Source: Xestospongia bergquistia
Taxonomy: Eukaryota > Porifera > Demospongiae > Haplosclerida > Petrosiidae
Direction: 5' to 3'
DNA: 64,000 nt
NCBI GenBank assembly: GCA_963965975.1
Contig: OZ014414.1
Coordinates: 2,765,501 to 2,829,500 of the forward strand
A model generated the notes under the pieces. It was not told the DNA's origin and ran no database searches. It worked only from the letters and a program-made list of their open reading frames with translations. The position numbers and the translations under genes were made by a program. Of this stretch, positions 23,201 to 63,284 are shown one piece after another. The number at the start of each line of letters is the position of its first letter. The stretch's first letter is position 1.

Positions 23201-24503
23201 TTATACATACAATGATGCACACACAGTGTCACATACCATTGTTTTTAAATAATCTTCATAACCATCTGCTGCATCATTCTGTCTAATAGCTCTTAAAGCA
23301 TCTAAAAAAATCCTCCGTGTTGCTTCTCTTCCTTTCTTCATAATCCATAACTGATACATTCTAGTATAGTCATGACATCCAGCGAGATCCACACTGTCCA
23401 GTCCTAGTTTCACACCTAACTGATTCCATTCCGCTGTTTAGCATGTGAAATTAATTCTTCATGTGTAGGTTGTTGACCCAAGAGATGATCTGGTAAAGTA
23501 GATACATGTACACCTCCTTCAACTACATTACCTGATATGAATTGGAAAAATATACAGTTTCATATTGATCTAACAAAATGATCTTTGTTTGTTAAACAAT
23601 ATAACAAGTGTGATCAAGTTATTGGTATTAATACATGTACAGATGACTTAACAAGTCACAGTGTACGAAAAACCATGCATGCATACATTAATGATAAATT
23701 AATACTATATCTTTGACCCTAACTTCTAAATATAATAACCTAACAGCATTAATTTTGCATTGAAGAATACACTTCCAGTGCCTTACAAACAACCACTACT
23801 TTCTTATTTACATTTTAAAATGTCAACAGATGAAAAAAGAAGCCAATAAAATATTTAACATAATTACAGACTAAAACTTTACAGGCAGTTAAACTCATCA
23901 AATAAATCATGGTCATGATGTAATGAATGACACAGGAAGTTTTAAGGGTTGGATTTATTTTCAGCAGACTCTAAAATATGGCTGGTTCGAATCAAAGAAA
24001 AGTGTAGCTTGTGTCTTTACAGAGGGCTAGATATCAGGCAAGGGTCTGTTTTCTCCTTTAAGTAATATAAAACAGAATAATGCATTGAGAGGCATGTAGT
24101 TATAACATTCAGATGACATGTTAAGTAGCTGACAATACTTTTTAACAAAAGTAGTGACTAGTAACAACACAAAATATTTTTAAAAACCAGGTTGTAGAGA
24201 GTACTTGACTTGATTTCTTATTGTATTATGATGTTAGCATGACATCATATGTTCTTATATGACAGGTGGAAGACAATAATAAAGTTCCCAAACTAATTTA
24301 TATTTGTTTGCTGCCTGTGACACTGATCTAGGTATGTACAATGTGATTGATGAACATTAACAAAACACATACATCTAAATGTATTATAGAATTTCAAAGA
24401 AGTCCTGAAAAATGAACTTTTTAATAAAGCCTTTTTTATTATTTTAATATCATTTATTTACTGATATCTAAGAAAGAATTGTGAGTATCACCATTGCTAA
24501 AAG

Positions 24504-24777: not shown

Positions 24778-27700
24778 GCTAAAAGTCTGCTAGTGAGCAG
24801 TGATTAGGCAATAGTGGTCAACCTCATATAGTCTGACATTCCTAAAGCTCTCTTGCATGAGCAAGCCTATTGCCAGCTACAGAATGCCTGTAGCATGTAT
24901 GTAACAATAAAGTAGGCTTCACAAAAAGGATCATTTCTCTGAACTCATTTAACAGATAGCCCTCATACACACTTCAAGCCAACATGACAAGTTTTGCATT
25001 TTTTCATGAAATCTCAGAATTAGAATAACAAGTGTGTATGAAATATCAAAAAACTGTATCTACTCCTTTGACTATAATATATTTTGAAGGAAAACAACTA
25101 TTGTAAAGGCAGTAAGACATGATTGTCACATAAATTAGGAATATAATAGAAAAATCAATGGTATGAGTCTATTAAAACTAGATCAGAGTCTAAGATGAAA
25201 GAAATGACTAACCAATTATTTTTGACTAGTCAAGAATAGTTAATAATTGTGGGTGTGTCATCAAATTACATGCAACATTCAAAATTTACATTTGAAATGT
25301 CAATAGATGAAAAGCCTGGAAGCCATTTACAACATTCATTATAGTACTAGACAAAAATATATTGAAATTGGCAAATTATTTTAATACATGTATAATCTTT
25401 ACTGTAATATATTATAATATAAATAATTAAACAGGCTATTTTATGGATACAGCTTATTAAATTCAATAAATCATGATATAAGGAAATCTAGATAGTTTAT
25501 ATATTCAAAAAACTTGAGGCTCTAAATATGAGGATGTCTTCAAAAAAGGAAGGTGGACTTTATGTATTTTATCAGGTAAAGGACTTTTCTCTATTACAAA
25601 ATAGTCAAAGTCATGTACACACATACAACATTATATTATATATGACATGAGTGTCAGGTAGTCTATAGCTTTTAATAACATGTTACGTAGCTGGTTAAAT
25701 ACTTGTTAAATGCTAAAATTAATTTATATATATATATTGGATGTCATATATTGTCTGCTGAAAATTTAAATTATCTTGTGTCAGCGCTAATATGATCATA
25801 TTAGAAATTATATGACAACAGTTACACCTCATATATAACTAGCTAATGAACTTGAATATACATGCATTTTTAATTGCTTCACTTTTTTAGTCAAAATAAA
25901 ACTAACCTGTAAACCAAGGTAGCTGACGTGACTTATCAGTATTAGTTGTTTGAGAGCTATCTTGACAAATACACTTTAGTTTGTCTTCACTTAAACGACA
26001 AAAATGTTCTGAATCTTTTTTAGGGCAATTGGATCTTGTACAATAAAAATATTCATTGACACTATTCACATTAGCCATATATTGGAATTTACTTATCACT
26101 TCATTGATTCCTGTGTAGATGATATGTTGTAAAGTGAAGCATTCTGTAGAAAAGCCAGAATAATATACTGCAATCCAATAAATTCCATCAACTAAAAGAA
26201 CATCACCAGAATCAATTTGTAAAGTGATGACATTATGATAACGTGGTGTTAAATCAGTAGGGAGTTTAAGTTGAAATCTCGGTAGCTCTGTACGATGTAG
26301 AAGGTTTACAATTAATGCAGGGAATACACCTCGAGGAAGAGGCTTCATATCCCAAGATAAAATAAGAGGTTTACGTATTCCTTAAAAGGAAGTGGTATGG
26401 ACTTGTAATCAGTTGAAGAGGTTGTAGCAAGAACTGTGGGAAGGAAGTATTTTCCTTTCTCAGGTAAAGAGGCCATTATAAATAAACTTGTCATTAACTT
26501 AAGAAAATCTTGTGGTGTAAACTCAGGATAGAATCCTTGTGATAAATGTGAATTGGGTGATGTCAACAAGTCTTCTTTAAATGTTCCATGAGCAGAATAA
26601 CTATGTATAGGGATACCTTCTTCCTCCAAGAAATCAACAGCATTAGCAAAAGATATACTGATTAAAACAGAGAGTTTGTTAAAAAGTGGCTGTGGATGAA
26701 GGAAAGCTACATTAGGTAAGATTTTAGGAAAGTACAGAAAGATGGTCAGGTCATGATTGAAGTTTAGAGCTGCTATAACATCACTAGCACTCATTTGTAA
26801 GGTCTTACCAATCTTTAAACAATTAGACAGACTTACAATGTTGGATTGAGAAGATCTTTGGAGCTCAAGTTGAAACAAAAACCATCGAATAGGGATTCCC
26901 TCCTTGATGTAATATTGGCAAATTTTCTTACGAATCCTAGTAGCCATTTTCATCTCATCATTACATCTGCCAATAGTATTGATTGGAAAAATTATTTCAT
27001 TTCCAGCTCTGTGATGCATAACTGTGATTTCCTGAAATTTCTCTAAAGCTGCTGAGAGAATCGTATTTTTCTTTTGGAGAGACTCATAAGATTCAACCAT
27101 TTTATCCAAGAATGTCCCTAATACTATGTGGAGAGGCTCTTGAACATGTTCGATAGGATTATTTGGTAATACAGAATAATTTATTGACAATACTGAGCGA
27201 AACATAGATTCAATAAGTTGCAAATTTGTGATCTGTTTTTCTACTGGCTCATCAATTAACTTTCCCTCAACACTATAGAAGAATTTAGCTTTGTCCTCAA
27301 GCCTCTCAGTTAGCTTGTGCGTGAGAATATTGACAGAGTGATATTGTAACAAAGCCGGAGCAATATCTATAAATGCAGCCTGACCACCAGTATCAACACC
27401 ATATATCCAATGACATTTATAAAGCTCTTCAGACTTTCCTACAAAGCCTAAGATGTCTATGATTTCCTGAGTTACAGAAGGTTTTGGTAAAGAGCTTTCA
27501 TCAACTATTTGTTCATGTCCAGCTGTGGTTGATGGATCAGAGCTATTACTGCCAGACATTTCTTTTGGATTGTTCGTTGGGTGATCAAATGATTCATCTA
27601 ATGGCTGGTTTATTACTTTGATTTCTGATGAAATATCAGGTTTCTTAACTACTTCTGGTTTGTGAGGGTGGATACTATGTTTCACTCCTTGAGCAATTAC

Positions 27701-28079
27701 TAATAGTAAAATGTCATTGTCTATTTTTCTCCACATGCAATCATCCCCAATAGCAGATATAATCCTTGCTTCTTTTGTTGCAATTACTGGAGTACTGTTA
27801 TGACAATCTGGAGGATCTTCATTGTAAAGTAGGTTTAAAAAGGATGACTTGCCAGTTCCAGGAGCGCCTGAGACAGAAAACTTGGTCCACTTAACAGTGA
27901 CATAACCTTCATTCATTGCTTTAGCAAGTAACATCTTGTTAGCAACTAATGTATAATAGAAATAAAATTTCAAACTCTAAGTAATCAATGTTAAGAAGGA
28001 TTATATAACACATTATATTGATGAATTTTTTATTAAATTTACTAAGTATAAAATATAGATATTTTAAATTTCCAATTGA

Positions 28080-29330: not shown

Positions 29331-31539
29331 GACCTTTGTATATTACTCATATTGTTTACTATGATAATATAAAACTATCAGTTAGTCCTGGGAAGAAGCT
29401 ATAATTATAATACTACAATAAATGTCCAGTGTAACAGTTAACATAATGTATTAACATATTATATAGAAATTATATTACCTGGATCAATAATTTTAGTAAC
29501 ACGATTACAAATAGATGGAACTCTATAAAACACACCTATATGAACAAACAAATTATAGATAATATCAATAATAATGATGAATTAATTAATAATGACCTAA
29601 TGTTTGGATATACTAACTACAAGTTAATACAGTTTTAGCTATGTTGTTGTCAAAATTATATAAAATTAATAAACTATAATTAAGAGAACTGTCTGTTCTT
29701 TCACTCAAACCTAACATTACATATTTTGAACCAAATGTTCCATATATATTACATAACTCTGATGTATCAGTAATATATACCATGCTCTTAAGGAGGGGTC
29801 ATTATGTTAGTATATTTAACACAATAATTTTTAATTAATGATGGGTGTGTCTAGAGTATTATGGGAAGTCCTACTATGATCACCATAAATCTAGATTCAA
29901 GGACATTTGCACTGTGTACAGTTTCTGTAATGCTGATCTAGACAAGTAATAAATAAAACTTATCAAATTCTTTGACAAATGAATGATAAAAGTTTGTAAT
30001 TCTAAAGTTTGTATTATACTGTCCATTGACAGTGACAATATTAATAAAACAACCTTGTTACTTAATAACTTACTAATTTAAGGTAATGACGTAGCGTAAT
30101 AGCTAGTTCCTTGTTGATAATAATAGGATTCTCCAAAGCAGTAATAAATGTTTCCCAGGTAACTGGAGATGGTTTAGTATCTTTCCAGATTTTAATTACT
30201 TCATCAACTTTTTCAATATTGCTCTTCTGACTGTCCTTTAAATCATTCAAAACATTGCAATGTACTTGTAATGCCAATCCAAATTCATACCACTTATCAC
30301 TAATCTCAGGTAAGTTACGGAAATAATTCTCATGGGCAGGAATCTCCTTTAATATACTGGTAATATCTGAGATGATAACAAAATAATTATTATAAAACTG
30401 TCATATTATAAATTAATTTAATACAAAAGTTGGAACAAAAAATTGTAATTATATTTATACGATTAACTAGAACATCTACATGTTACATTCATCTGATGTA
30501 CATTATGTGTGAACATGTTGATTCAAACTGAATTAAATACACTTTACAGTAATAGTCTGAACATCACGATTAATAACCTCATTACTTAATAATAATAACT
30601 TATTTTTCTTACCTATACGAAGATATTCACGTATTAGATCAGCTATATTCTTGTCATTAACAATAGGACTCTTAATAGCAGATATCACTGTCGCCCAGGT
30701 AACAAAGGATGGTTGAGTAGTCAGAAAGTTGTCAATAACAGCAAAAAGTTTTGCGAAATCAATGTTTTTTAAATTGTCCAAAATATTACGGTCTACTTGT
30801 AATGATATTCCAATATCATGCCATTTGTGTCTAATATCAGATAACAGCTCAAATAGTTCATATTGTGTAGGAGTCTCCTTTAATATACTGGTAATATCTG
30901 AGATAATAACAAAACAAACATTATAATAAACTGTACCATTACAAATTAATCAATGTCTTTAACATTGTCATTTTAAATGTATGTGGTATTGATTAAGTAT
31001 TCACAAATGAAAACTTCAATTATCAATAAATGTATACATGTACTACGAACTAACTTATTTTCCTATTGACCTACACTAATGAAGAATATCGACTTATCAT
31101 GATTACAATCAATGGAGCAGGGACTGGAATAAGGCTAGGCTTACATTTCTTAAGGTAATGAGGACAATCTAACTCATCATTAGTGACTAATAGATATGTA
31201 TACAACATAAAGGCTATATCATGGGTTCCCTGAACTAACCTCTTGTATACTTAATTCAAACTTATAGTTTGTATAATTACAAGCAAGAATAAGGATATCC
31301 TACATGAGTGTTAGAAACAGTTGGTGAGCTAATTTCATCAACTATTGTCATCTGAGCTGACACTAACTAAGTTCATCTTAGGTTAGTGGGATATTATTGT
31401 CAATGTAATTGCCAACTATTATTGACAAGAGTAGTATCAGATTATGTATTATAAATCATAATTCTGGAGAAAAGTTTTATTATAATAAATGTAATCAAGC
31501 ACAGAGGATGTGTTTTTTAATAGTAGTGTTACCTGTTTT

Positions 31540-31563
31540 AGGTCCAGGATTGAGTTCAACATC
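31540..31563 (-). other. 2A ribosome-skipping site of gene M
   Basis: Codons 66-73 of gene M encode D-V-E-L-N-P-G-P, the 2A consensus, directly after a leucine-rich hydrophobic run and 7 bases before the exon 1 donor. Codon position is identical to genes L and R. Confidence 0.75.
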
Positions 31564-31758
31564 TCCTGATAAAATGAGGAGAAGTAAGACAAAGATTCCT
31601 AAAGAGAAAGAAAGATCTTTAGCCTTTTTGATTATAGTCACTCTATGGATCTTATTACTGCTCTCAGTGTTTGGAGTCTCTTTAGAATGAGTACTATATG
31701 ATATCTGACAACATGTCCATAATCCAATACTCGCTCTCCATTGAGATATATCAATCAT

Positions 31759-35031: not shown

Positions 35032-38000
35032 TTATATAGGTTGAACACTCTCGTTATTTCCCACCTACAAAAATGAGGAAAAATGTTAGTAATAATAATA
35101 ATAATTGTGGTTACAAGTTGTTATAAGTTAACTTATTATTGTCACAAGTTGTTACATATAAATAGCATATATAAAGCAAAGTTTATACATACATTATTAA
35201 AATCCAAAGCCTCCTACTAATATTACATCGAAAGTTATGATCAGTGTCAAAGTTTAATATAATTATATTAAATTCAGTTAATAATCTGAAGGTATTCATA
35301 GCTAATATGTCCACTTTATATACATGTATACATTGATATATGGACAATGTAACTTACTGTTGTTTGTAAATAATCTTCATAAACATCTGCTATATTATTC
35401 TGTCTTATAGATCTTAAAGCATCTAATAAACTCCTTCTTGTTGCTCCTCTTCCTTTCTCCATAATCCATAACTGATACATACTGGTACAATCATGACATT
35501 TAGCTAGATTGACACTATCCATTTGTAGTGTTACACCTAACTGATTATACTCTGCAGTTCTGGCATGTGCAGTTATTTCTTGAATTGTAGGTTGTTGATC
35601 CAAGAGATGATCTGGTAAAGTAGATACATGTACACCTCCTTTAACTATACAACATAATATGAAATAGAAAATATACAATTATTTTAGTATTAATTTAATA
35701 AGAAAACCTTTTCTTTGTTAAGCAATAAAACAAGTGTAATTATATTATCAATGTTAACATGATGACAAAACTAGTCAAATGACACTGCCAATAATTGTGG
35801 GTGTCATCACATTACTAATTGCAACAGATGAAAAACTGGGAAATCATTTTAGAACATTTACTATAATACTTGACAAATAGATAATTAAATCAAACATTTT
35901 GGCAATTATCAGCACAGATATACAGAGTAAGACTAAAGCAGCTATTTTATAGAGATTGTTTACTGAATAACAAAATCAAGGACATGATATGCATAATGAC
36001 ATTATGTATTACACATGATCTTAGCAAGTTCTTAAGGCATGGCTGGTTCTAAAAAGAAGAAAGGTGGAGTTTGTGTATTTTGAAGTCACTACCAAGTCAT
36101 GTCTGACTCCTTTGGATGTTGATGAAAGTTAACAATTAACTTGCATAAATTATTGTACTACCTACAGCTGGTTGCCATATACTCAACTATTCAAGTTATG
36201 AATTGACTCTATCTTCCTCTTTAATAAATTGATCCACACAATAACATGATAAAATGAAAAAAATTGTCATTTGATCATGCCATTTTTAAATTTCACAAGT
36301 AAATGCTCCAATAAGTAATTTAAAAACATCCAGATAATTTGATACTCATTATTAAATTATTATTGAATTGTGTGGATTTTTTTCACACAAGTGGAAGGGG
36401 AATAGAAGTTGAAATTTACTTTTTACTTTTAAATACAATTAATATTCTGTTATATGTGTATTTTCACAATAAATTAAAACTCACCATCCATGGAAAACCA
36501 AGGTTGCTGACGAGATTTATCTATAACATTAGTAGTACAGTTTGCACGGCATACAAGTATTTCCTTGTCTTCCTTCAACTGACAAAAATGTTCTGTAGTT
36601 TTATTGGAACATATGGTACAGTAAAAATATTCCTCAAGATTTTCTTATGTTAGACATATATTGAAAGTTTTGGATCACCTCACCAATTCCTGTATGGACA
36701 ACATCACGTATAGTACTACATCTTTTGTAGGGATCTGAATAATATACTGCAATCCAATAAATTCCATCAACTAAAAGAACATCACCATAATTAGTTTGTA
36801 AAGTGATGACATTACGATAACGTGGTGTGGAACGTAGTGGACGTTTAAGTTGAAAAGCAAGCTGATTTTTAGAACATAGAAGATTGACAACTAATGAAGG
36901 GAAGATACATCGAGGAAATGGCTTCATATCCCGTGACACAATTAAAAGGTCAACATGTTCCTTGAAAGCAAATGGTAAAGAATCGTAATTGGTAGAAGGT
37001 GTAGTAGGAAGGACAGTTGGAATAAAATATTTTTCCTCCTTGGGTAGATAGGCCATGATGAGTAAACTGGTCATTAAATGGAGAAAATTGTCTGCTGTAA
37101 AGTCATCAGAGAATCCATTAAATAGGGGCAGTGACAATAAATCTCTTGTAAAACAACCCTCATCTTTGAGGTCTCTATAATCACTTGGTTTAATAATGAT
37201 ACGATTACCTTCTATACCATGAACTTTCAAATGATCAATCGTTTCAGCAAAAGAGATATTAATCAAATCAGAAAATAATGTAAATAATGGTTGAGGATGA
37301 AGAAACACTACATTAGGTAAGATATCAGGAAAGTAAAGGAAGACAGTCAGATTATGATAATACATTAAAGCTGCTTCAACATCATCAACTTTCATTTGTA
37401 AGCCTTCGCCAATATCTTGGCATTTAGATTTACTCACAACAAATATGTTGGATTGACAAAACTTCTGGTCTAGTTCTAGCTTAAACAAAAACCATCGAAT
37501 AGGGATTGGAGCTTTTAGGGAATATTCACATATTTGACAACGGATTTCATCAGCTAGTTCTTTCTCATACTTGTCTCTGGCAATAGCATTGACAGGAAAG
37601 ATTACTGCATCTCCTTTTTCACGATAAAGAATGGCTTGATCTTTTAGATTTAATTCTTTCAATTTTGACCAAAGAATAAAATTTTTGGTTTCTATTGACT
37701 CACCAGAATAACCAGGCTTCACTAGTTCATCATAGTATGTCCCCAATACTATGCAGTGTGGCTTTTGAACATTCTCTTCTTCATTCTTATTTTCAGGTAT
37801 TCTTAGAGGATTAACTGATGTTAATGAACGAAACAAAGCTTCAAAAAGCTGTAGATTTGTAATCTGCCTTTCTACTGGATAACCAATTAGATTTCCTTGA
37901 ACACAGAAGAAGAATTTAGCTTTATCATCAAGTCGCTCATCCAGCTTGTGTGTAAAAATATTGACTGAGTTATATCGTAACAATGCTGGAGCAATATCTA

Positions 38001-41000
38001 TAAATGCAGCCTGACCACCAGTATCAATACCATATATCCAATGAGCTTTATAAAGCTCTTTAGATTCCTGTACATGATCTAACAATTTTATGATATGCTG
38101 AGATACATCAGACTTTGGTCTGTCTTCTATTATCGTTATTTGGTTAGGTTTATTTATGTCTGTGTCTGGTAATGGCTGATATGACTTAGCTGCTACTGGT
38201 TCTTCAATTGATCTGCCAACTACATCACTTCCCACTTGATGAGCTTTGATTTCTGGTGATATTTCCATGTTGTTCTTAATATTTCCAGCAATAATTTCCA
38301 TTATATCATCAGGCTTCACTATTTTCCATGATGATTTCTGATCATCACCTTTGATAGCAGTTATGACATGTGCTGGACGTGGGGCAACTACATTAGTACT
38401 GTTATGTACATTGTCACTATCACTTGGTTCATCATTATACAATAGCCTTAGAAAAGATGATTTACCAGTTCCAGGTGCACCAGATATTGAAAACTTGGAG
38501 AATTCAACAGTTACAAAACCGTTCTTCATAGCTTTGTCCAGTAACACATCATTGGCATCTAGTAATAAAATAACTTTATGATTTTTTAAAATTTATTTAA
38601 TTATCAATTTAACAAACACATTACTATGAATATTAGGTTATAACATAAATTGTTACTTTTCGAAAACACAAACTGTCTGTTCAGACCTAAAGATTGGGAC
38701 AAGTAAAATGAATCTTTTTTACAAACAATTGTAAGACTGTCTGACATGCTATGTGTGACATGTAAATTAATCAAAATGGTCCCAAAAAGCCACCTTTCAC
38801 ATTAGTATTGGTTTCTATTCCCTTTCCTGTGCTCTATGACATGCATGTAATATAATACTAATATGAACCCATAATCTCTGTATAGTTGACTACCGACTCA
38901 ATAATATTATCTCAAGCTAAGGATAAGCTACAGAGAAATAGTTTGCAATACATCATGCAAATCTGCTTAAAACATGAAAAGAAAGTGGAGTGCCAGATGT
39001 TTAGGAAAGTAGTAAACTAGAAATACTATATCACAGGAATAGTGTCTTTCACATACTACCATGATATGATGTCATATATACTTGCAGATTATTAACGAAT
39101 GAACACACAAGCATTCATTAGCTGGAATAAAAATGCTTAGAAACAGTTGAAAATGTCTTTTACAATACACAATTCTTTGTGTACATGTACAATAAATAAT
39201 AGGGTAAAGATAGGAGTTGGAATGTGGTTGAAATTGCACATAAATTTATATGGCTACCATAAAAATGGACACATGTACAATAACAAATAATATGTTTGTA
39301 GTAGTAAGGTATGTAATGTTTGAGTTTCCATTGCTATACATAAAGTTCACAAAAGCTTATACAATACTCTTCACATTAAGGTGACAGTGTACTTGGTTTG
39401 TATTAATCGTGTTTTATTAAATCAGTGAGAATAAGTCACTAGTATATTGATTAATAATTTATATTGACAAAGTAAAGTTATAAGGTCTTGAGGTTAGAAA
39501 TCACTGAAACAACTTGGAAACAATCACATGCTGTCCTTGAAATATTGACAAGTAAGTATGAGAAGAAAAACAACTACTTGTTGTGTATGTTATTAGTAAT
39601 GGTCCTAGTAGAGTTATACACTAAACATTTCACAATGACAACGGTGTGAATCCATACCCAGAAATACTAAATATTAAGGGATATATGTGACATGGGCTTA
39701 CAAAATGAACTCCTGAATAAACCATCCCAGGATAAAATAATTATTGAGGGATATTTGGTATTAAAGGACAAATACACATGCACTGGGCTACTAAGAACCA
39801 TCCCAGAATATACTAAGTACTAAGAACATAGTATTATAGTATTAGGGGCCACATATGCACTGGGCTCCAAAATGGACCCTTGAATGAACCAACTCATGAT
39901 GTACTAAGTACAACTTTATATTAAATGATATATAGGCATGCACTAGGCTCGTGAGACCACCATCCCAGGATGAAGTAAGTATCTAGTGATAGTAGTGTTT
40001 AGAAATTTGTATGCACTAGGCTAATGAATTTACCATTCTAGGATATACTACAGTTAGTATGAATACTTAGCACTAAGGAATGTGTCTATCTCTTGAGTTG
40101 GGGAGATATCAAGATGTACCAGTGATACTTGGTATTGAGGAACATACATGTGTTAGTATCAAGTTTAAGGATACTAAGTGTTGACATTGGTTCAGTCTTG
40201 GGGATTACTTAGTTACTCGGATATGTAGAATTACTAGTTAATACAATGGTCAAGATGTGGTGGTACTGGACATCACTCTTTTTTAAAAACTAAACATCAG
40301 TACAAGTACGTGAAAACTGTTTGTGTAAAACACTTATAGAACTGTCTGGTATGCCAAATAAATTAAGTAATATACATCATCTCACAAGAACATAATCTAA
40401 TACTAATAATCTTATAGGGCCTTTGTTATTACTCACATTGTTTACTATGATAATATAAAACTATCAGTTAGTCCTGGGAAGAAGCTATAATTATAATACT
40501 ACAGTAAATGTCCAGTGTAACAGTTAACATAATGTATTAACATATTATAGAGAAATTAAATTACCTGGATCAGATATTTCAGTGTCATGATTATGATGAA
40601 ATAGAAGCCTCTCAAGATCATCTACATGAACAAACAAATTATAGATAGTACTAATAATAATGATGAATTAATTAATAATGACCTAATGTTTAAATATACT
40701 AACTACAAGTTAATACAGTTATTAGTTATGTTGTTGTCAAAATTATATAAAATTAATAAACTATAATTAACTGAACTGTCAGTTCTTTCACTCAAACCTA
40801 ACATTAGATATTTTAGACCACATGTTCTGTATGTATTATATAACTCTGATGTATCAGTAATTTTTATCATGCTATGACTTAATTAACCAATCAGATTGCT
40901 CCATTTAGGTCAATAAATAAAGAGGAATACAAGTTCTTATATAATTTTTAAGGCTATAATTTTCAAGGTTATAAATATTTTAAATTTAAAATTCATTTCC

Positions 41001-49605: not shown

Positions 49606-52600
49606 CTATATTGTAGTTGCCATAACATCACTTATATAGATTGAACACTCATTATTTCCCACCTACAAAATGAAAAAAATAGCTAGTAATACAGTGGAAA
49701 CCCTTAAAATTATGGATTCAAACAAACATATTCACAGTATACACAACACTGTATGCACATACTCAAGTTCATATACTGAAAACCATTTGCTTTAACAGTG
49801 ATCAAAATCTGCAATATTTTCTATTTAAAGGGTGAGAACAACTTATTATTCACAATTACAGTTGCTATATCTGATTTACTTTTACCTCCAACCTCAATGG
49901 AATTCAAATACAGAGATCTTAGTGGTTAATTGTATGGTTCAATGCTAGTCATGCTTACTATATAGTCTGGTACTTGTGTTAATGAGATTAATAGCATAGA
50001 GGCTACAATGAGGGAACTAAAACTTTGTTCTTTTAAAGCAGAATTTTGTTTTAATTATGCTCATGTTAAGTAGTGAAAATTTACACAGTTTCTATGGAAG
50101 CACTGCAGGGACCACAAGTAATTGTTACTTTCAACTAGAATTTTGCTTTAAACATATTTTTAAAGAGACTCCACTCTAGTTATTTGTTGCTACAATAAGA
50201 AATAAGTCAGTAATAATAATTTGTGGTCAAATTGTTTATATAGATATAAAACCACTTTCATATAAATAGATGGGAATATTACATCTAAAACAACCAAAAT
50301 ATGATTAATGACAAGGTTTAAAAACAAAACTTTTTGACAAAGTCAGGAAGTAATGATACAGGACTATTCTTAACTAAGGGGTCCACTCTATGTAAATGTA
50401 TACATTGATATCATGACAATGTAACTTACCATCATCTTTATATGATCTTCATAAGAATTTGCTACATTGTTTTGTTTAATAGCTCTTAAAGCATCTAACA
50501 AACTCCTTCTTGTTACTTTATCAGCTTTCTCTTGAATCCATAACTGATACATTTTGGTATAGCTATTGCATTCAGCTAGATTGACACTGTCCAGTTCTAA
50601 TATGACACCCAGATCATTCCATTTTGCAGTTCTAGCATATAAAACTAATTCTTTAATAGTAGGTTGTTGATCCAAGTATTGATTCAGTGACATACTACCT
50701 ATGAATTCGATGAAGTAATCATTTTAACATTGTGTAGTATTGTAATATAGTCATAGCAATTTTTTCACTTTTAACATAATTATGTCAAAGCACAATGTCA
50801 TTGAGAAGCACATCATTAATCAAATACATGTAAATATCATATGGACTACTTTGTATAGTTGGCTTTAAAATCAAAGAGATCTGACCCATTCCAAAATATG
50901 TGCATGCAATTAAATTCAACTACTGACTTGAAGTTGTAGTACATTCTCTTTTTGATGTTGGCATTTCCTCCATCTGATTGGGTCGTTTATGACCTAAATA
51001 AAAAAACTAACATGACAAACTAAATTCCAAATGGATCACTAGTTAATATAAACTACTAATACTATGATTTATGTTAACTGCTTTGCACTTGTAACATAGT
51101 TAAAACTTTGTTAACATGTTATACAATGATTAAGTTAATACAATGTGGATAGAAATAGATCAAAACTATTATATTCCCCTATTAATTTTCTTTCTTGTCT
51201 ACATAATGTTATAAGTAAATAAATGAAATAATGAAGTGTCTTCATTACTTGTAGTTAATCATTTATTTATGTTCCTGTGCTATTCTTTAGGCTATGGAAT
51301 TATCATTTTTGAGAGTCATTCAACTATCTGATTCCTCACCACGTCTACTTGATATGTCATCTGATTCTAAGTCACTATCATATGATGCATTATGAGGTAT
51401 TTTTTTCCTAGGAGATATATGTACATCATACTCAGATTGAACAGAATCTAAGTCTTCTGATCTCAGTCTCTTCTTTTTCTTTCCTATAATAAATTAAACA
51501 AATATTATTGTTTGGACTTCGTGGTTATATCAAAATATAATGTTTGTACTATTCCTAGTATAAAAAAAATTTGCATTGTAATATCGTTTCAATGAGTAAG
51601 TGCTTTATCAACACATTTAGTATCTATGATATCACTTGCTTAATTTGACATAATTAGCATATTTTAGCGTATAACCTAAAAATATATTATTACAAAAACA
51701 TAAAAAAACATAAATGGAGAATGAACGTGAACTTCAATTATATAATTTGATCATATTACTATTATAGACATATAAACAGTTAGGTTGGATTTGGTTACTG
51801 TAATTACAAACATTATAGATAAATTAACCTAAAATTTTAACTATCATACTATTATCAATGGTATACATAAACTAAGACTAAACCAGTCATTTGATAGACA
51901 TAGTTCATTAAATCAGATAAACTAGTGTCATGAATGACACCGAGAGTTTGTATATTTGAATTGATGATAATTTTATACAAAGTTCTAAAATGATTGGCAA
52001 CAAAACAACAAAGGTAGAGATTGTATATAGATATAAATATAGCATAAGCTGTCATATCATGTCTCCTAATAACTAAACAAAAATAGTCACTTTTGTTTAA
52101 TTTAAAAGCAATCATACTAGAAAAGCAACAAATTATACAACAATAGCTTTTGTTGTATAATTTATTGTTGTGTGTAACGATTAAAGGGATAGTTTGAATT
52201 AATTTACAACTTGAATATCAACTTGAATATATAATAATATCAACATTGTTGTGTCATTGCTGACTCGTCAAGATGTTAATCATATTAAACATTAGTGTAC
52301 TACCATATTATGATAGTGTAGGGAATAATACAAGTATGCTTTACATAGAATGCATTATACTACAGGACAATATAAGAGAAATTTGAATGATTGCTTATTG
52401 ACATACCAACTGGTTTAGGATCTTCACTAACAGGATAAGGAGGTGAAGATAGTGTAGCTATAGAATAAAAAAAATAAGACAAAAGATTTAATTAGTCACA
52501 CAAATTATTGTTCTGCTTACAGTGTTAGCTTGTTATCATATACATCAGATATTCAAGTTGTAAATTGATTCAAACTATCTCTCTAATTATTACACACAAC

Positions 52601-55600
52601 AATAAAATATCGAAAAATCATCATATGATCTTATGTCATTTATTAAGTTTTCATAACTAAATGCTATACCAACTAATTTTAAAAAATAGCTAGATAATGT
52701 AATGCTTTACCTATTCAATTAAGTAGATGTTTTCACACAAACGAGAGGAAGATGGAAGACAATACTTACTTTGACTTTTAAATGTAATCAATATTAATAT
52801 TCTACTATACGTGTATTGTTACAGTAAATCAAAACTCACCATTCATGGAAAACCAAGGTTGTTGACGAGTATTATCAATAATGTTAGCAGTAAAACTTTC
52901 ATAGCACATGAGTGTTTTCTTGTCTTCTTTTAAATGACAAAAATGTTCTGTAGTTTTATTGGAACATATGGTACAGTAAAAATATTCCTCAAGATTTCCT
53001 ATGTTAGACATATATTGGAAGTTATGGATCACCTCATGAATTCCTGTATGGACAACATTGCGTATAGTACTACATCTTTTGTAAGGATCTAAATAGTATA
53101 TTGCGATCCAACAAATACCATCAACTAAAAGAACACAGCCATAATTAGTGTGTAAAGTTATCATATTACGATAACGTTGTGTGTTACGTAGAGTACGTTT
53201 AAGTTGAAAACCAAGCTCATTTTCAGGATGTAGAAGATTGACAACTAATGCAGGGAAGATACCTCGAGGAAATGGTTTCATATCCCATGACAAAATTAGA
53301 GGATCAACATGTTGCTTAAAAGCAGGTAGTATGGAGTCATAGTTGAAGGAAGGTGTAGTAGGAAGAACAGTTGGAATAAAGAATCTTTCTTCCTTGGGTA
53401 GATAGGCTATAATGAGTAAGTTTGTCATTAAATGGAGAAAATCATCTGCTGTAAAGTCATGACAGAATCCATTAAATAGAGGTGATGACAATAAGTCTCT
53501 TGTAAAAGATCCTTCATCTTTGAGCTCCCTATAAGCACTTTGTTTAATAATGATACGATTGTCTTTTATACCATGAAGTTTAAAATGATCAACCGTTTCA
53601 GGGAAAGAGATACTAATCAAATTAGAAAGTATAGTAAATAATGGCTGTGGATGAAGGAACACTACATTAGGTAAGATATCAGGAAAGAAAAGGAAGACAG
53701 TCAGATTATGGTAGTGTATTAGAGCTGCTTCAACATCATCAGCATTCATTTTTAAGCTTTCACCAATCTCTTGGCATTTAGATTTACTCACAACAAATAT
53801 ATTGGATTGACAAAACTTCTGGTCTAATTCTAGCTGGAACAAAAACCATCTAATAGGAATGAGAGCCCTTAGAGGAAATGCACATATTTGAGAACGTATC
53901 TCATCAGCTATTTGTCTCGCGTGGTCATCTCTGGCAATAGCATTGACAGGAAATATTACTATATTTCCTTTTTCACGATGAAGAATGGCTTGATCTTTTA
54001 GATTTAATTCTTCCAATTTTGACCAAAGAATAGAATTTTTCACTTCCAATGATTCACCAGAGTAACCAGGCTGCAGCAGTTTATCATAATAAGTACCCAG
54101 TACTATACATTGTGGCTCTGTAATATTCTCTTTTTCGTTCTCCTTTTTAGAGGAAATTGGAGGATTAACTGATTTCAATGAACGAAATGAAGTTTCAAGA
54201 AACTGTAAATTTGTAATCTGCCTTTCACATGGCTCACTGAATACATTTCCTTGAACACAGAAGAAGAACTTAGCTTTATCATCAAGTCGCTCATCTAGCT
54301 TGTGTGTAAACATATTGACTGAATTATATCGTAACAGAGCAGGAGCAATATCTAGAAAAGCAGCCTGACCACCAGTATCAATGCCATATATCCAATGAGC
54401 TTTATAAAGCTCTTTAGACTCCTGTACATTATCTAACCATTTAATGATTTGCTGTATTATATCAGACTTTTTTATATCTTCAGTTGAGATGGTTTCTTCA
54501 AATTTACTCATGACTACAGACTGAAATGACTCAGTTGCTACTGGTTGTTCAATTGATCTATAAACAAAATCACTTCCCACTTCTTGACATTCTTCAGGGA
54601 ATATTTCAATGTTGTTTTTAATATTTCCAGCAATTATTTCCTTCACTTTGTCAGGCTCCACCTTTATCCATAACAAATTGTGATTGATAGCAGTAATAAC
54701 ATGTGTTGGACGTGGGGCAAGTACATTAGTACTGTCATGTAAATTGTCATCATCACAGTTTGGTTCATTATTATAAAGTAGATTTAGAAAAGATGATTTA
54801 CCAGTTCCAGGTGCACCAGATATTAAAAACTTGGAGAATTCAACAGTTACAAAACCGTTCTTCATAGCTTTGTCCATTAACAGATCATTGCCATCTAGCA
54901 AACAAAAAAATATATTTGCACCTTAATTTGATTTCTGGTTTAAGCAGGTTGCTTCTTAAGTGTGGTTCGAAGCATATATACTATTAAACTTGTCATTTTT
55001 TAAAAATTGTGATCACATTTAAGAAGAGTAAAATACATAATAAAATTAATGTTAGATTAGGTTAGATCACATTGTTACACCAAAATTGTTAACAAAATCT
55101 ATTGTAAAGAGGTTCTACTGAACCAAAAACATAATAAATATATAGTACTTGGGAAAAATTGTGCCAAAACTAAAAAATTATGTAATGTAATACATGCATA
55201 CCATACATGTTCTGTTCATGTTGAGAATGACCACTAATTGAATGTTCTAACTCAAGTGAGAGAAATGATTTAAATGACTCAAAACACATAGCAAGTCCAC
55301 GAACTATCAAAACAAGAACATTAGCTACATAGAAAAGTTGTAAACCAGAAATACAACATAAAATAAATGGCATTCTTCAAATTCCACCATGTCTGACATT
55401 AAGCATATTTTCAATATTATTAATGAAACATTTCCACAAGCATTGTCCAGCTTTAGTAAAACAGCTTAAAACTTTAAAAAATATCCATTGTGAAAAAAAG
55501 AGACAGTGACAAAAATTCATGAAAACTCTATCATTTGCCCAAAAAATTGTAAATATAATACCATGCTAATGTTAGGTTGATGAGTTAGTCATTAATAAAA

Positions 55601-58600
55601 TTCCAATGAACCGTAGTCATTCTCAATAGGTTATACTTAGATAACTTACTTCTTTGAAATGTTGCTGGATCTTGATTGGGTTCAAAATTAGGCACTATAG
55701 TAACATCTAAATAAAGGAATTAACAAATATTTTGATGGTCAATATCACTCATTTTAAATATTTTATATTACATTCCTGCCTCGTCTATTGCTAGAGCATC
55801 TCAATTATGGGATAAATTAGGTAAAAATAATGGGGATGATCCAAATATCCTTACAAGTTTTGGTATATAAATGTTGGGATTGTCCTGTAATTTTTAATTA
55901 TAAGACCTAAAGATAGGTATCCTGCTATATCCTAGGATTGTCCAATCACTATACTTAGCATCATACATGTACCCACATCCTGCATATATTATGATACTTA
56001 CATCTTGGAATGCTGGTATATCACATGACTATCCATCCATCAAGATACCATACTTGAAACATAACACATAAACTCCAGCATTACCTATCACATACTTGCC
56101 ACCATATATACTGTATCACTTAATATCTTGGGAGTTTTAGTACATCCCAGCATGTTCATCAAGCAACTATATATGTTACGTAATATATATGTTATGTAAG
56201 CAGTAGAAACTGTTTCCAAACTTCTATACACTTCTGCACACCTCCAATGGAATAACTTCTCAATTCTTATAGTTGTACTATAGTCGGTATACATACTTAT
56301 CACCAATATATGCGTACATATCTGAGTTATGTAAGAATATGTTGAGGTTGTCATCAGTAATGACCCTAATGGAGTTACTTTTACACTAAACTTTTCTCTG
56401 GTGACAATGGTGAGAATCCAAATCCAGGAATACTTGCATTAAGGAATATATATGCACTGTGCTCAAAAATGAATCCCTAAATGAACTAACTTAGGGTGCA
56501 ATAAGTATCAAGAGAATACTTGGTATTAAGGGACATATATCCATGCATTGGGTTATTAAAGACTATCACAGGATGTACTGAGTATCAAGAAAATATTCTT
56601 ATAGAGACAAACAATGCATGGGGCTCTAAAATGAACGTCTGAATGAACCACCCAGAATGTACTAAGTATGATAAAGAATATTCATTATTAAATGATACAT
56701 ATGTATGCAGTGGACTCCTAAGCTCAACATTCCAGAATTTAAGTATAGGTAGTGATATTTTTGAAATATGTATACACTGGACTCATGAATTGACCATTCC
56801 AGGATGTACTACAATCAATATGGAAATAGCCAGTACAAAACTCAGGGATACAAACACATTGTTAGTAATACATTGTATTGAGGATTGTACATCTACTACA
56901 CACAGCCAGTATCAAGATTAAGGATACTCAGTGTTTATATTGGTCAAATATTAGGGAGTATATACTTAATATCTTGGAATATATAGGTTTGTTAGTTAAT
57001 ATAATGGACAAGATGTAGCAATACTAGATATCATTCTCTTTTAAAACTAAAGATCAGAACAAGTAAAAGAAAACTATATATCTAAATTAAGACTACAGTA
57101 AATGTCCACTGTACATTGAACATAAAAATATTGATATATTACAAAGAAATAGAAGTACCTGAATCAGATATTTCAGTGTCAGGATTAGGATTAATTTGAA
57201 GCCTGTCAATTACTTCTACATAAACAAACAAATTATAGATATTATCAATAATAATAATAATGAATTGATTAATAATGACATGATGTTTGGATATACTAAC
57301 TAGAATTAATACAATTATTAACTATGTATTACATAACTTTGGCATATCAGTAACATAACATGTATGAGGGAGAGATCTGTATGACCAAAATATTAGTATT
57401 ACACAAGTGAAGACAAATTTGTATAAACAAAGAAACCCTATGCTTGAGTATACTATATATCTCATACACTAGAGTTACATACATGTACTTATTTATAAAC
57501 AGTACAAGTCATCATGGTTAATCTCAATATATGTACATATAATTATTATCAGTACATGGATTATTAAAAGAGGCACAAGATTAAGTAATTTAAAAGAGGG
57601 TATAACTGTAATTGGTAGTTTACTAGTCTCATTCAGGTTGACTACCAAAAATGGCATCCTCATTTCTTAATAATTACATTTTATTATCTATATTCCTTAC
57701 ATCTGTATTTATCTTCTATTCTATTAAAAAGCCAATTACTTAATATACTTGTTAAGTGTGCTAGAATTATTTTAATTATTCTTATAAAGAAATGAGAATT
57801 ACTGTCAAGTCAATATGTTTGTTTTATGTGTGTGTATGCTACATCATGTGACTTAGTTATATTATGTAAAATAGTACTACATAATATATGTACATTGGGA
57901 TAAAGAGGTTTTACTATAAAATGATATAAACTCTATGAAAAAGAATAATAAAGTTTTGTAAATCAAAAAATTGTACTATATAGTTCATTAACAATGGGAA
58001 TATTAATAAACACCTCATTATAGTCATTAATTAATAATGATGGTTTACCTAATTTAAGATGATGGCGTATATCTTTAGCTTTCTTCTTGTTTTTAATAAT
58101 TGGACACTCAATAGCAGTTATCACTTGCTCCCATGTGACAGGTAATGAGAGTTTAAAGACTTTCTTGAGTTTGTCTATATTATTGCCCTGACTTTGTTTT
58201 ATATGATCTAAAACTTTGCGATGCACTTGTAACAATTTTCCAAGCCTATACCACTCATCTTCAATGCCAAGTAATTGATAAACTAGTTTATCTTCGTCAG
58301 GAGTCTCTTTTAATATACTGGTAATATCTGAGATAGCATCAAAATTATTATCATAACAAAATTGTTATCATTTCACATCATAAATTAAATATGCAGGTAT
58401 TCAAATATGCCAAAATATATTGTGAGGGAAAATTACTCAATAGACTACTTAGGATGGTAACTAATGCTTGAGAATGTACCAATTAATTAAAATCAATGAT
58501 AAAGTCAATCATAACTTTTAACAGCTTTAATAACTTATTACTCTTACCTGTACAAAGATAATAACGAATATAATCAGCTTTTGCCTTGTTTTCAACAATA

Positions 58601-60210
58601 GGACTCTCAATTGCATTTATCACCATTTCCCAGGTAACAGAAGATGAATGATTGATCCATCTGTTAATGACGTTTGATAGTCTGAAAGTGTCATCACAAT
58701 GTCTGAGATGTGGGTCATCCAAAAAATTAGGATGTACATGTAATGCCAGTCCAATCTCATACCATTTGTCGCAAATATCATCTAATAGATCAAATAGTTG
58801 ATCTTCATCAGGAGTCATCTCTTTTACTATACTGGTAATATCTGAAATAACAACGAAATAATTATTATAACAAACTGTCACATTATAAATTAATTAATGT
58901 CTTTAAAATTATCATTTTAATACATGTGGTATTGATTAAGTGTTGACAAATGAGAACTTTAATTATCAATAAATGTACATGGAATTTAATTAATATGTAT
59001 ATTGTGGTGTTAGGTCATATAGTGCTATGTGTATTTGAGTAACCATTTAAGTCTGTTTCTCAGTTTTAATTGTCATTGTTGTTCTTTATCTAGTTGGTTG
59101 TTGCATTAATTCAGTAAGTTTCCAACATATTTACTAACAAGTTAAAACACCTTCAAAGATTGTAAATCATGGGACTCTTTTGTCATTCATTATATGAAAA
59201 GCACATCTATTACTACTTTTTAGCTAATGATATAAAAAATAAGGATAAGAAAAATCTATTTTAGTAAGCATTTGTGGCCTAACCAAAATAATTCAGCCTC
59301 TAAGTGCTACAGAACTGACTTTTAATCAATTAGTGTACATACTGTAAACATACTACAGTTTTGATAGCACTTAAACAATCGTAATATTATTTATAATTCA
59401 AATGGCTTTAACTTTACTATATTATCACATTTTATCATATTTGATTCAGAAATGAACTATCAACACTTTGAAAACAATCTCAAAGTACCTATTTTGAGCA
59501 TATTTCTATACTCTGCCAAAATAATTTTCTGTTAAAAGCTGTTGATTCTTTGCAACTTTGCTCCATTCAACTTTTTTTGTTCAAGCTAGCACTATATTTG
59601 TGGTCAACACCTCTAAGTTGGCATCCATTAAAGATTTGACATGTAACACGTAGAATCAGCTTTCAAAGTAACAACGAACTGAATTTATATTTTTATAAAA
59701 TTTGGATTTTGGATATAACATTTATTCATAATAAAACCAATCTAACTCAGTGTTAGTAACTAATAGATAAGTATAGAACACAGAGGCTATATGCATTTAA
59801 ATAGGTTTCCCATACCAAAACGGATTGATTGATTTAACAATTATTTGGTCATACTGGTTGAATTGAAAAATTATTTTATCAAAAAAGTAATCATAATACT
59901 GTTTTCATTAATAATATACTGTTACTTACGTATGTACGTAATCATCAATTTCATAATAGATCGGTTATTAAAATAATATTATGTTTACATTTTATATATG
60001 CTACCAGTATAACCATGTGTTAGATAAAACAATCAATTTTTGTAATGCTTAAACTAAGGTTTTGCATATTCAATTGAAACTAGTTTGTAGAAAAATATAT
60101 CCTATATATATGTTAGAAATAGTGATCTGAATTCATCAACTAATGAACTGAGACTATTTAAGTTTATTTAAGTTTGGTGAATTATTATTAATAATGCAAT
60201 TGCCAATTTA

Positions 60211-60305
<95 letters not shown>

Positions 60306-60560
60306 CAGCATAAACATTGTTTTTAATGGGTTACCTGTTTTAGGTCCAGGATTGAGTTCAATATCTCCTGATAAAATAAGAAGGAGTGAGAGAAAGACTG
60401 CTAAAATGAAAGTAAGAACTTTAATATTCCTGGCCATAGTCACTCCATCGATTTTAATACTGGTCTCAGTGTTTGGAGTCTTTTCAGGATGAGTACTGTA
60501 AGATATATGACAACATGCCCACGATCCAATACTCGCCCTCCATTGAGAGATATTAATCAT
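49606..60560 (-). CDS. Gene R: intact 2A-signal / Death-Death / Roc-COR / Death protein (ROCO family)
   Basis: Eleven exons join without a stop into 1179 codons: 60335-60560, 58548-58841, 58049-58327, 57159-57215, 55650-55706, 52840-54894, 52407-52457, 51340-51483, 50943-50993, 50430-50698, 49606-49662. All internal junctions are phase 1 except the last (phase 0). Residues 1-75: signal-like region, hydrophobic at 48-63, 2A GDIELNPG|P with the break after residue 72. 76-173 and 174-266: Death domains (DKWYEIG, VTWEMVINAIESP; DEWYRLG, VTWEQVITAIECP). 305-989: Roc-COR, with P-loop GAPGTGKSS at 331-339, DTGGQ at 477-481, GTYYD at 571-575 and COR from about 650 (IPIRWFLFQLEL). Cys 945, 948, 957 and 968 end this exon. 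1007-1054: basic (KKKKRLRS). 1072-1161: third Death domain (MYQLWIQEKADKVTRRSLLDAL). ROCO proteins are GTP-controlled signalling proteins; DAPK1 likewise joins ROCO and Death modules. The donors of exons 8 and 9 are the least certain. Confidence 0.8.
52126..52170. repeat. Long inverted repeat (hairpin) in an intron of gene R
   Basis: AATTATACAACAA and its exact complement TTGTTGTATAATT face each other across a loop of a few bases. The arms extend further (CAACA / TGTTG) with a two-base bulge. It could fold in RNA or mark the core of a small palindromic element. Confidence 0.6.
56350..57110. repeat. Family intronic repeat, partial copy f (gene R)
   Basis: Minisatellite part of the same repeat found in genes M and C: units with TGCACTGTGCTC, GAATGAACC, CAGAATGTACTAAGTAT and TATTAAGG. 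It ends just before the linker exon at 57159-57215. Confidence 0.65.
60214..60303. repeat. (AT)n microsatellite beside the exon 1 donor of gene R
   Basis: About 45 uninterrupted AT dinucleotides starting 31 bases downstream of the donor of the 2A exon (minus strand). Genes L and M have no such tract at this place. Confidence 0.95.
60342..60365 (-). other. 2A ribosome-skipping site of gene R
   Basis: Codons 66-73 encode D-I-E-L-N-P-G-P, a full match to the 2A consensus, directly after the hydrophobic segment. Skipping would release a 72-residue N-terminal peptide and start the Death-ROCO body at Pro73. Confidence 0.78.
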
Positions 60561-63065: not shown

Positions 63066-63284
63066 TCATGTGGTTACAAAATATGTAACAAATTGATCAA
63101 TTCTTAATAACTTCAGAGTACTTGCTTTTATTCGTTGCCATGCAAGACGAACATAATGAATGTGAACAAAGCCAAGAGCTGCTGTTCTATGTACAAATGA
63201 CTTTAGTTGCTCCGTCTTTTCTTGTATTGCATTTGCTGATCAATGTCTTGAATTTTTCTCATAATTGCCTGGCAGAAATTTTTT

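Follow-up and report, generated by a model that had tools for sequence, protein, structure and literature searches.

Can a single gene supply the same signalling protein in a membrane-directed and a free form? The question arises from gene R, a minus-strand gene in the window (the 64,000-nucleotide stretch of DNA analyzed here), where a hydrophobic N terminus closed by a 2A ribosome-skipping motif is predicted to lie ahead of Death and Roc-COR domains.

Predicted structure of gene R

The spliced model of gene R (60560-49606, minus strand) is an open frame of 12 exons encoding 1218 amino acids, with GT-AG borders at 11/11 introns. A sequence-only reading of this DNA had likewise found the frame to be open, but had counted 11 exons and 1179 residues. 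Exon 1 (60335..60560, 75 codons) starts with MINISQWRASIG, runs through a hydrophobic segment, and ends in the 2A core GDIELNPG|P, as that reading had described, followed by a phase-1 donor (GTAACC). Two Death-like domains are encoded by exons 2 (58548..58841) and 3 (58049..58327), after which come three short linker exons, 4 (57159..57215), 5 (55650..55706), and 6 (55202..55303). The large exon 7 (52840..54894, 685 aa) encodes the predicted Roc GTPase and COR domains, with GAPGTGKSS, DTGGQ, and GTYYDK as putative P-loop, G3, and G4 motifs. It is followed by a linker (exon 8, 52407..52457), a basic segment KKKKRLR...PRKK that looks NLS-like by eye (exon 9, 51340..51483, which runs into an in-frame stop if left unspliced), another linker (exon 10, 50928..50993), a C-terminal Death domain (exon 11, 50430..50698), and a terminal exon with the stop codon (exon 12, 49606..49662). 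Each of exons 2-10 begins and ends in phase 1, which fits the phase-1 end of exon 1. The predicted exon order is therefore leader-2A, Death, Death, Roc-COR, basic segment, Death.

Domain assignments through relatives

The Death and Roc-COR folds were assigned from sequence profiles, for which the sequence-only reading had suggested searching with gene R itself. All Pfam matches of gene R were weak (Death, the best, at E 0.014 and below cut-off; ABC_tran 0.031; AAA_18 0.13; ICL 0.17; AAA_29 0.27), and neither the whole protein nor exon 7 alone matched Roc or COR. The domains were instead established via relatives, at the exons where that reading had placed two Death domains, Roc-COR, and a C-terminal Death domain. 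The core of one relative, L037, passed the cut-off for both Roc (E 1.5e-13) and COR-A (E 3e-13). Exon 7 of gene R aligned to this core over 611 columns (24%, E 1e-16). Through this relative, gene R is predicted to be a ROCO protein, with Roc directly followed by COR. Several GTPase-motif columns are invariant or nearly so across 56 relatives of exon 7, among which COR-A was matched in 21 and Roc in 2. A weak P-loop match to ABC_tran was commoner than COR-A (28/56), which we count against the overall explanation proposed below. Searched as a profile against the PDB, the Roc-COR alignment had no significant match; a flavin monooxygenase (0.073) and LRRK1 (0.12) came out on top.

The C-terminal exon matched Pfam Death in 9/9 paralogues (best E 1.8e-9), with gene R's own exon at 0.002, below the curated cut-off; the best PDB profile match was the NRADD Death domain (0.0067). 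Among the N-terminal Death-like exons, 8/22 matched Pfam Death (best 0.0019). A profile built from all 22 ranked a designed repeat protein first, over a 16-residue match taken as spurious, and found the Death domains of FADD (E 3.1e-4). Exon 2 of gene R alone matched no family, and the N- and C-terminal profiles aligned weakly with each other in hhalign (probability 18%, E 0.0013). These profile matches point to a Death fold for both the C-terminal and the N-terminal exons.

Human DAPK1 is a ROCO protein with a Roc-COR GTPase core and a C-terminal Death domain. Gene R differs from it by two Death-like exons before the core, by the 2A leader exon, and by a Pfam result without a kinase. ROCO genes have also diversified in brown algae, a lineage unrelated to sponges, via exon shuffling, and are proposed there to be immune receptors, according to the accessible text of PMC11378527, where 2A does not come up.

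Copies in the window and across the genome

Three 2A cores are present in the window (60343, 31541, and 1548), all on the minus strand. None of 100 dinucleotide shuffles reached three matches, and with backward-pattern controls also giving 0, a chance origin of the motif was ruled out. The first exons holding these cores (starting at 60560, 31758, and 1765) had been said to share a length of 75 codons, and they align across all 75. The second gene begins with the same leader module (31533..31758, GDVELNPG|P), and continues on the minus strand with two Death-like exons (30074..30898; 30898-30614 and 30367-30074), a Roc-COR exon (25908..27943), and a C-terminal Death stretch (23237..23437). It may be dead, since its Roc-COR frame breaks once, near 26366. 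The third gene, also on the minus strand, has the same module (1540..1765, GDVELNPG|P) and a Death-like exon (299..583), past which it leaves the window edge. Two of the window genes look complete, and the Roc-COR frame is broken in one of them, which we again count against the overall explanation. An additional minus-strand Roc-COR core with a C-terminal Death domain lies at 35364..38559 (74% against gene R, with one frame break and a COR-A match of E 1.2e-5 that falls below cut-off); no 2A or N-terminal Death exon was found between it and gene R.

Genome-wide, two patterns gave a total of 152 motif sites. On contigs C1-C10, 67/105 sites lie behind the same conserved exon start, a count that does not include gene R with its MIN start. 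Roc-COR was found downstream on the same strand at 16 of the 41 2A loci examined, and the order 2A, Death, Roc-COR at 12 of these (four ankyrin loci were dropped). Same-strand Death-like exons follow leaders with the SQWR start on C1, C3, C4, C7, C8, and C14, and a phase-1 AG acceptor was present at 25/26 Death exons, all on C4. The arrangement for which the sequence-only reading had proposed a genome-wide search, the motif ahead of a phase-1 intron and a Death exon, is thus predicted from sequence to recur at these loci. Conversely, the searched 2A core lay in the 15 kb upstream of only 3/146 COR-A places. This is an undercount, since most of the cluster in the window escapes the COR-A profile. 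The searched core was absent nearby at the other 143 places, which comprise most ROCO-like genes of the genome, and this, too, we count against the overall explanation.

Structure and constraint of the leader exon

Thirty-one leaders passed the filter on the leader start, with lengths of 64-78 residues; that of gene R has 73 residues up to the proline. Most copies seen begin with a short conserved stretch, MIDISQWRASIGLW, followed by a variable stretch, a hydrophobic segment, and the 2A. The conserved start reads SQWRASIG. Gene R itself reads MIN at its start. The hydrophobic segment is strong in 31/31 leaders, with best Kyte-Doolittle means of 2.3-3.5 over 15 residues, and stops 8-11 residues short of the end of NPGP. 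By hydropathy, all 31 therefore have a 2A closing an N-terminal hydrophobic signal. A GT lies 7 nt past the NPGP codons in 28/31 leaders, and at 4 or 10 nt, also in phase 1, in the other 3.

Both GDIELNPGP and GDVELNPGP conform to (D/G/C/N)(V/I)ExNPGP, given as the accepted StopGo/2A motif in the accessible text of PMC12846837. Another 33 leader starts lacked the searched core. In a sample of 13 of these, 11 were broken or chance matches, and 2 carried variants, GGVELNPGP (L044) and GDIEVNPGP (L048), whose D-to-G and L-to-V changes fit the same motif pattern. No leader that had lost its 2A with the frame kept was seen among the 13 of 33 read. In two of the 13 (L046 and L051), the frame is open through the hydrophobic tract but shifts at the 2A; loss of the 2A from a leader is thus possible, which we count against the overall explanation. 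The leader start is constrained (pN/pS 0.19), and the middle shows no detectable constraint (pN/pS 1.10). Many paralogues, spanning several core types, keep the 8 residues of the 2A core, whereas the 34 residues ahead of the hydrophobic segment drift. This conservation is partly biased, because the motif itself served to find most copies.

The leader is shared with other gene families

Within this genome, NACHT, ZU5, GBP, and ankyrin genes also have the leader exon ahead of them, so that, with Roc-COR, five kinds of core were found downstream of it in the loci read. The leader of one ROCO gene is 99% identical to that of its ankyrin neighbor, which makes the exon look portable. N-terminal protein database searches found no ROCO protein with the leader, but did find two NACHT proteins, P0121 (unnamed) and P0124 (a predicted model). 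The latter, LOC109585322 of Amphimedon queenslandica, reads from the leader into NACHT. It shares the leader, MIDLSQWRASIGLW ... LLLLLSGDIELNPGP, with 43% identity to that of gene R over 72 aligned positions, but has a NACHT core and no Roc-COR in its Pfam result; its NACHT stretch is 58% identical to that of P0121. This similarity and the leader shared with the Amphimedon protein are the grounds for calling the animal sponge-like. Together, these genes suggest a portable leader rather than a ROCO feature. The proposal of a 2A leader on a ROCO family thus held in that the family repeats, with phase-compatible Death/Roc-COR/Death exons, but was too narrow in leaving out the other families.

A candidate dual-targeting leader and its alternatives

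The closest known arrangement, correctly pointed out in the sequence-only reading, is that of sea-urchin NLRs (SpNLR2A; Roulston et al. 2016), a large innate immune family in which a hydrophobic N-terminal signal ends in a 2A core. As described in the accessible text (PMC4981915), such a signal skips at ~80% in vitro, a reporter behind it yields a cytosolic and an exocytic product, with a fused fraction and ~15% of the reporter in the medium, and abolishing skipping sends the reporter mainly to the Golgi. The systems differ in host (an echinoderm versus a sponge-like animal), in core (NACHT versus Roc-COR, NACHT, ZU5, GBP, and ANK), and in signal length (26 residues versus 64-78 with a conserved SQWR start); gene R, with 73 residues on a Roc-COR core, thus departs from the sea-urchin layout of 26 residues on a NACHT-LRR core.

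By analogy, we favor, at a probability of about 0.6, a portable leader that combines an ER signal or anchor with StopGo and would give a free and a membrane-routed signalling protein, with gene R as one of a multigene ROCO-type family that presumably has an immune or cell-death role. Exon 1 would be spliced to the Death exons, and the hydrophobic segment should serve as ER signal or signal anchor. Skipping of the Gly-Pro bond would release a leader of ~72 residues and free the signalling protein, with proline as its first residue; unskipped protein would stay fused to the leader and enter the membrane or secretory route. We count against this explanation that exon 7 of gene R matches neither Roc nor COR on its own, that both database proteins with the leader are NACHT rather than ROCO proteins, that the unskipped product would place the GTPase in the ER lumen, where it would have no obvious use, and that the leader is far longer than the sea-urchin signals.

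Viral StopGo sites often leave almost no fused product. Near-complete skipping here would leave no meaningful membrane form, and the leader would itself be the other product, a small peptide, secreted or in the membrane, made alongside a cytosolic Death-Roc-COR protein. The intact core and adjoining hydrophobic tract in the examined leaders would suit this, as would the leader start, conserved past the need of a generic signal, which suggests that the peptide itself matters. The lack of detectable constraint on the middle of the peptide and the fused fraction reported for the sea-urchin signal (PMC4981915) argue against it, and we consider it a minority possibility. Somewhat less probable still is that NPGP is inactive, a relic or kept for another reason, and that the exon acts as a signal anchor and nothing more, giving a single membrane form. 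Sponge NLRs with transmembrane domains are indeed reported as putative membrane-bound receptors in the accessible text of PMC12909245; yet the core has been retained, subject to the motif-based sampling, where upstream residues drifted, and even its variants obey the accepted motif (PMC12846837).

The 2A exons could also be separate short genes or retrotransposon remnants, unspliced to the Death-Roc-COR genes behind them. In 2A-bearing non-LTR retrotransposons, too, a hydrophobic tract precedes GDIELNPGP, and a PHD finger comes directly after some of this genome's 2A cores (in L030 it is in frame, and in L004 a stretch that matches it lies 27 nt on), presumably as in non-LTR retrotransposon ORF1. 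However, the SQWR start is missing from both L004 and L030, and L030 has no splice donor at the leader position, whereas SQWR leaders end at a phase-1 donor; a retrotransposon origin of the window exons is for this reason not favored. With same-strand Death-like exons on six contigs, phase-1 acceptors where checked (C4), and an Amphimedon model that continues from the leader into NACHT, we regard unspliced exons as very improbable.

Implications

Cellular 2A sequences are described for NLRs only, as far as the accessible literature goes. On our best reading, the sea-urchin mechanism would also operate in a sponge-like animal, where it would serve ROCO as well as other Death-linked families. 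One gene could then yield a membrane-directed and a free protein; in gene R, this protein would be a Roc-COR GTPase with Death domains on either side. More tentatively, the spread of the leader over much of the sponge Death-linked arsenal (NACHT, Roc-COR, ZU5, GBP, ankyrin, and perhaps caspase) might amount to one translational switch, in which the skipping ratio sets the free and membrane-routed shares and could respond to the state of ribosomes or release factors in infection or stress; the reported "membrane-bound NLRs" of sponges might then be the unskipped half. If the leader works as in sea urchin, it may explain why transmembrane segments are predicted for sponge NLRs, and ribosome skipping would be a common control layer over the animal's cell-death and immune-type proteins.

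Gene R and its neighbors in the window

The window occupies positions 2765501-2829500 of contig C4, in a 146-Mb genome of 21 contigs, and contains three 2A cores, all on the minus strand. Gene R, which runs from 60560 to 49606, was modeled by picking splice sites by eye in the raw sequence and joining the exons by script. In this splice model the gene has 12 exons and 1218 residues and is open throughout; the open frame claimed by the sequence-only reading was retained, but its counts of 11 exons and 1179 residues were not, which leaves the overall picture unaffected. Exon 1, at 226 nt, covers 75 codons and one further base. Each of exons 2-10 begins and ends in phase 1 and has a length that is a multiple of three, as is classic for shuffled exons. 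Intron 1 holds a long TA microsatellite (about 60304-60213), some 30 nt past the exon-1 donor. If the exon 9 donor (51340-51320) were left unused, a stop codon would follow a few codons on, and such a form would be without the C-terminal Death domain.

As had been proposed, the first exons of the two other window genes, which start at 31758 and 1765, match that of gene R across all 75 codons (tblastn). In the 31758 gene, two Death-like exons are followed by Roc-COR and then a C-terminal Death stretch, the order seen in gene R (tblastn), with one break in the Roc-COR frame near 26366. The 1765 gene reaches the window edge beyond its first Death exon and is truncated there. An orphan Roc-COR core was found at 36637-38592 (COR-A E 1.2e-5, below cut-off), and another Roc-COR exon fragment lies in two pieces upstream of gene R, at 63278-63795. 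C-terminal Death stretches at 12077-12286 and 19854-20112 are probably remnants, as the former contains stop codons and the latter is split between frames.

Domain identity through relatives

Profile searches for Death, Roc, and COR had been suggested for gene R. Run on this protein alone, Pfam returned a weak Death match (0.014) and P-loop families such as ABC_tran (0.031), with no Roc and no COR; the identity of its domains is settled by homology, through relatives. A database search with exon 7 found 189 proteins, several with precomputed COR-A. Among the 56 relatives that were aligned, of the 120 listed, Pfam detected COR-A in 21 (best 3.5e-9), Roc in 2 (best 0.0039), and ABC_tran weakly in 28 (best 2.7e-4), the last of which is read as P-loop only. 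The core of L037, a 2A locus elsewhere in the genome, matched both Roc (1.5e-13) and COR-A (3e-13) past the curated cut-offs. Exon 7 of gene R aligns to this core over 611 columns (24%, E 1e-16), and is nearer to the cores of L036 (39%) and L038 (42%). Searching the PDB with a profile of the 56 relatives yielded no significant match; the best scores belonged to a flavin monooxygenase (0.073) and then LRRK1 (E 0.12). For the C-terminal Death exon, Pfam Death was found in 9 of 9 paralogues, and the PDB search reached NRADD at 0.0067. The N-terminal Death-like exons carried Pfam Death in 8 of 22 cases, and their profile reached FADD Death domains at 3.1e-4.

A variety of cores downstream of 2A

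Cores were called at 41 2A loci (fetched sets of 20 and 10, 8 short loci, and 3 in the window) by tblastn with family probes and by NACHT positions. Roc-COR was found downstream on the same strand in 16 of these, a count that, like the others from this set, is not a genome-wide frequency, since the loci were hand-chosen and the C4 cluster is over-represented. The 16 comprise the window genes at 60560 and 31758, L009, L012, L013, L016, L017, L019, L021, L024-L027, and L036-L038; four "ROC" probe matches at L032-L035 were left out, because the L038 probe includes a stretch common to these ankyrin genes. A Death exon lies between 2A and Roc-COR in 12 of the 16, the exceptions being L009, L012, L016, and L027. 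Some of the 16 are weak members: L026 holds a Roc fragment only, L027 gave a weaker match (E 7e-20) and has no SQWR start, and L012, L016, and L021 have a divergent core recognized by homology, with Pfam Roc below cut-off on L016 (0.025) and L021 (0.028). At L016:8483-9220 (minus strand), a caspase domain (PF00656, E 2.7e-14) lies between the 2A leader exon and the divergent Roc exon.

The leader-2A, Death, Roc-COR, Death architecture described from the sequence is real and recurs at further loci. The leader had been tied to the ROCO family; its presence there stands, but it is not restricted to it, being found at NACHT, ZU5, GBP, and ankyrin loci as well. ZU5 followed in 5 loci (L011, L014, L015, L018, and L020; the Pfam ZU5 match passed the cut-off in L015 and fell below it in L014), with a Death exon ahead of it in L014 and L018 only. 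Four loci, L032-L035, had ankyrin repeats (with Pfam applied to L033 and L034), and five had NACHT (L001, L002, and L005-L007, mostly by position). At one locus (L029:351-3693), the 2A leader is followed by a Death-like exon and then a guanylate-binding protein GTPase (PF02263, E 1.1e-33); in the run holding it, C3:1.55-1.60 Mb, 2A is accompanied by a leader start at four other sites. A PHD finger directly follows 2A in 2 loci, L004 and L030. At L030:93-569, the core runs in frame into the finger without an SQWR leader, and this sequence probably represents ORF1 of a retrotransposon; the stretch C4:8.60-8.91 Mb contains nine more 2A sites whose cores are similar. In 8 loci (L003, L008, L010, L022, L023, L028, L031, and the 1765 gene), Death exons only or nothing was recognized within reach.

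The leader as a module

By its sequence, the leader is a module. Its start, MIDxxQW, occurs at 146 places genome-wide, versus 1 in a backward control, and 67 of the 100 starts listed have a 2A core in matching orientation 165-212 nt downstream. Among 13 of the 33 core-less starts, two had variant cores (GGVELNPGP in L044, GDIEVNPGP in L048), and 11 were frame-broken, truncated, or chance matches, including L046 and L051, whose frame runs open across the hydrophobic segment and shifts on reaching 2A; none of the 13 had a substituted 2A in a kept frame. GT stands exactly 7 nt past the NPGP codons in 28 of the 31 leaders passing the start filter. Among 26 Death exons, drawn from the window or C4, 25 have AG at the matching phase.

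In 14 leaders of equal length, pN/pS was 1.10 in the middle (bootstrap 0.82-1.31), 0.51 in the hydrophobic part, and 0.09 in the core, the last value being biased by the use of the core to find most of the copies. The start (pN/pS 0.19; in gene R the first 14 residues, 60560-60519, with MIDISQWRASIGLW) is strongly conserved and common to Amphimedon.

In a small, midpoint-rooted tree of 34 leaders, built on a short alignment, ROCO leaders were scattered over four positions among NACHT, ankyrin, and Death-only leaders. The leader of L038, a Roc-COR locus, matches that of the ankyrin locus L032 at 99% and that of gene R at 59%. Gene conversion could also have caused this sharing between ROCO and ankyrin genes and the scatter in the tree.

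The modular leader also occurs in database proteins. An N-terminal search found four. Two of them are NACHT proteins with the leader: P0121, and P0124, a prediction from Amphimedon queenslandica that was also the sole match of a leader-only search. The other two, P0122 and P0123, are ankyrin proteins. P0124 begins MIDLSQWRASIGLW and later reads LLLLLSGDIELNPGP, separated by a long insertion that is possibly a retained intron. The two that carry the leader, P0121 and P0124, are not ROCO proteins.

Genome-wide distribution and literature

Two patterns found 86 and 66 2A sites genome-wide. The next feature on the same strand within 15 kb of these 152 sites was NACHT in 46 cases, COR-A in 3, another 2A in 37, and nothing in 66. 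Conversely, a 2A site lies upstream (same strand, within 15 kb) of 49 of 95 NACHT places versus 3 of 146 COR-A places, the latter an undercount, because most of the cluster in the window itself escapes the COR-A profile. At least 146 COR-A places (E up to 0.001; 105 over the curated cut-off by row count) amount to a greatly expanded ROCO family, of which the larger part apparently lacks this leader; human is reported to have four ROCO genes (PMC3995007). Many COR-A matches form tandem runs with open frames of ~700 aa, for example at C10:1.40-1.70 Mb, C11:6.37-6.47 Mb, and C12:5.39-5.54 Mb. Death matches numbered at least 150 (150 scored of 983 first-look candidates).

None of the open-access matches listed described 2A on a ROCO protein or in an immune gene of a sponge. 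Passages of a 2024 review name NLRs as the cellular 2A case (PMC11512398). A paper on Dysidea avara NLRs describes transmembrane domains in sponge NLRs and, in a figure legend, has COR among the domains; its text contains no NPGP (PMC12909245).

Possible dual targeting

The leader resembles the sea-urchin NLR 2A signals in that a strongly hydrophobic segment is followed by 2A. According to sections of one study, recoding by those N-terminal signals was roughly 80% in vitro, and a signal with skipping abolished took a reporter mainly to the Golgi (PMC4981915). For the C4 group to which gene R belongs, the 12 residues ahead of the hydrophobic segment have a net charge of +1 to +3; this positive flank is not general, since values as low as -2 occur among the leaders of the ZU5 and ankyrin genes and of L031, L037, L038, and L048. 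The segment is followed by acidic residues (-1 to -3), an arrangement that would favor translocation of the C-terminal side. Skipping activity is putative. Without skipping, a fusion protein would be routed to the membrane system. Skipping would instead release the leader peptide and a free Death-Roc-COR-Death protein, and because the basic exon 9 of gene R resembles, by eye, a nuclear signal, this free form might enter the nucleus.
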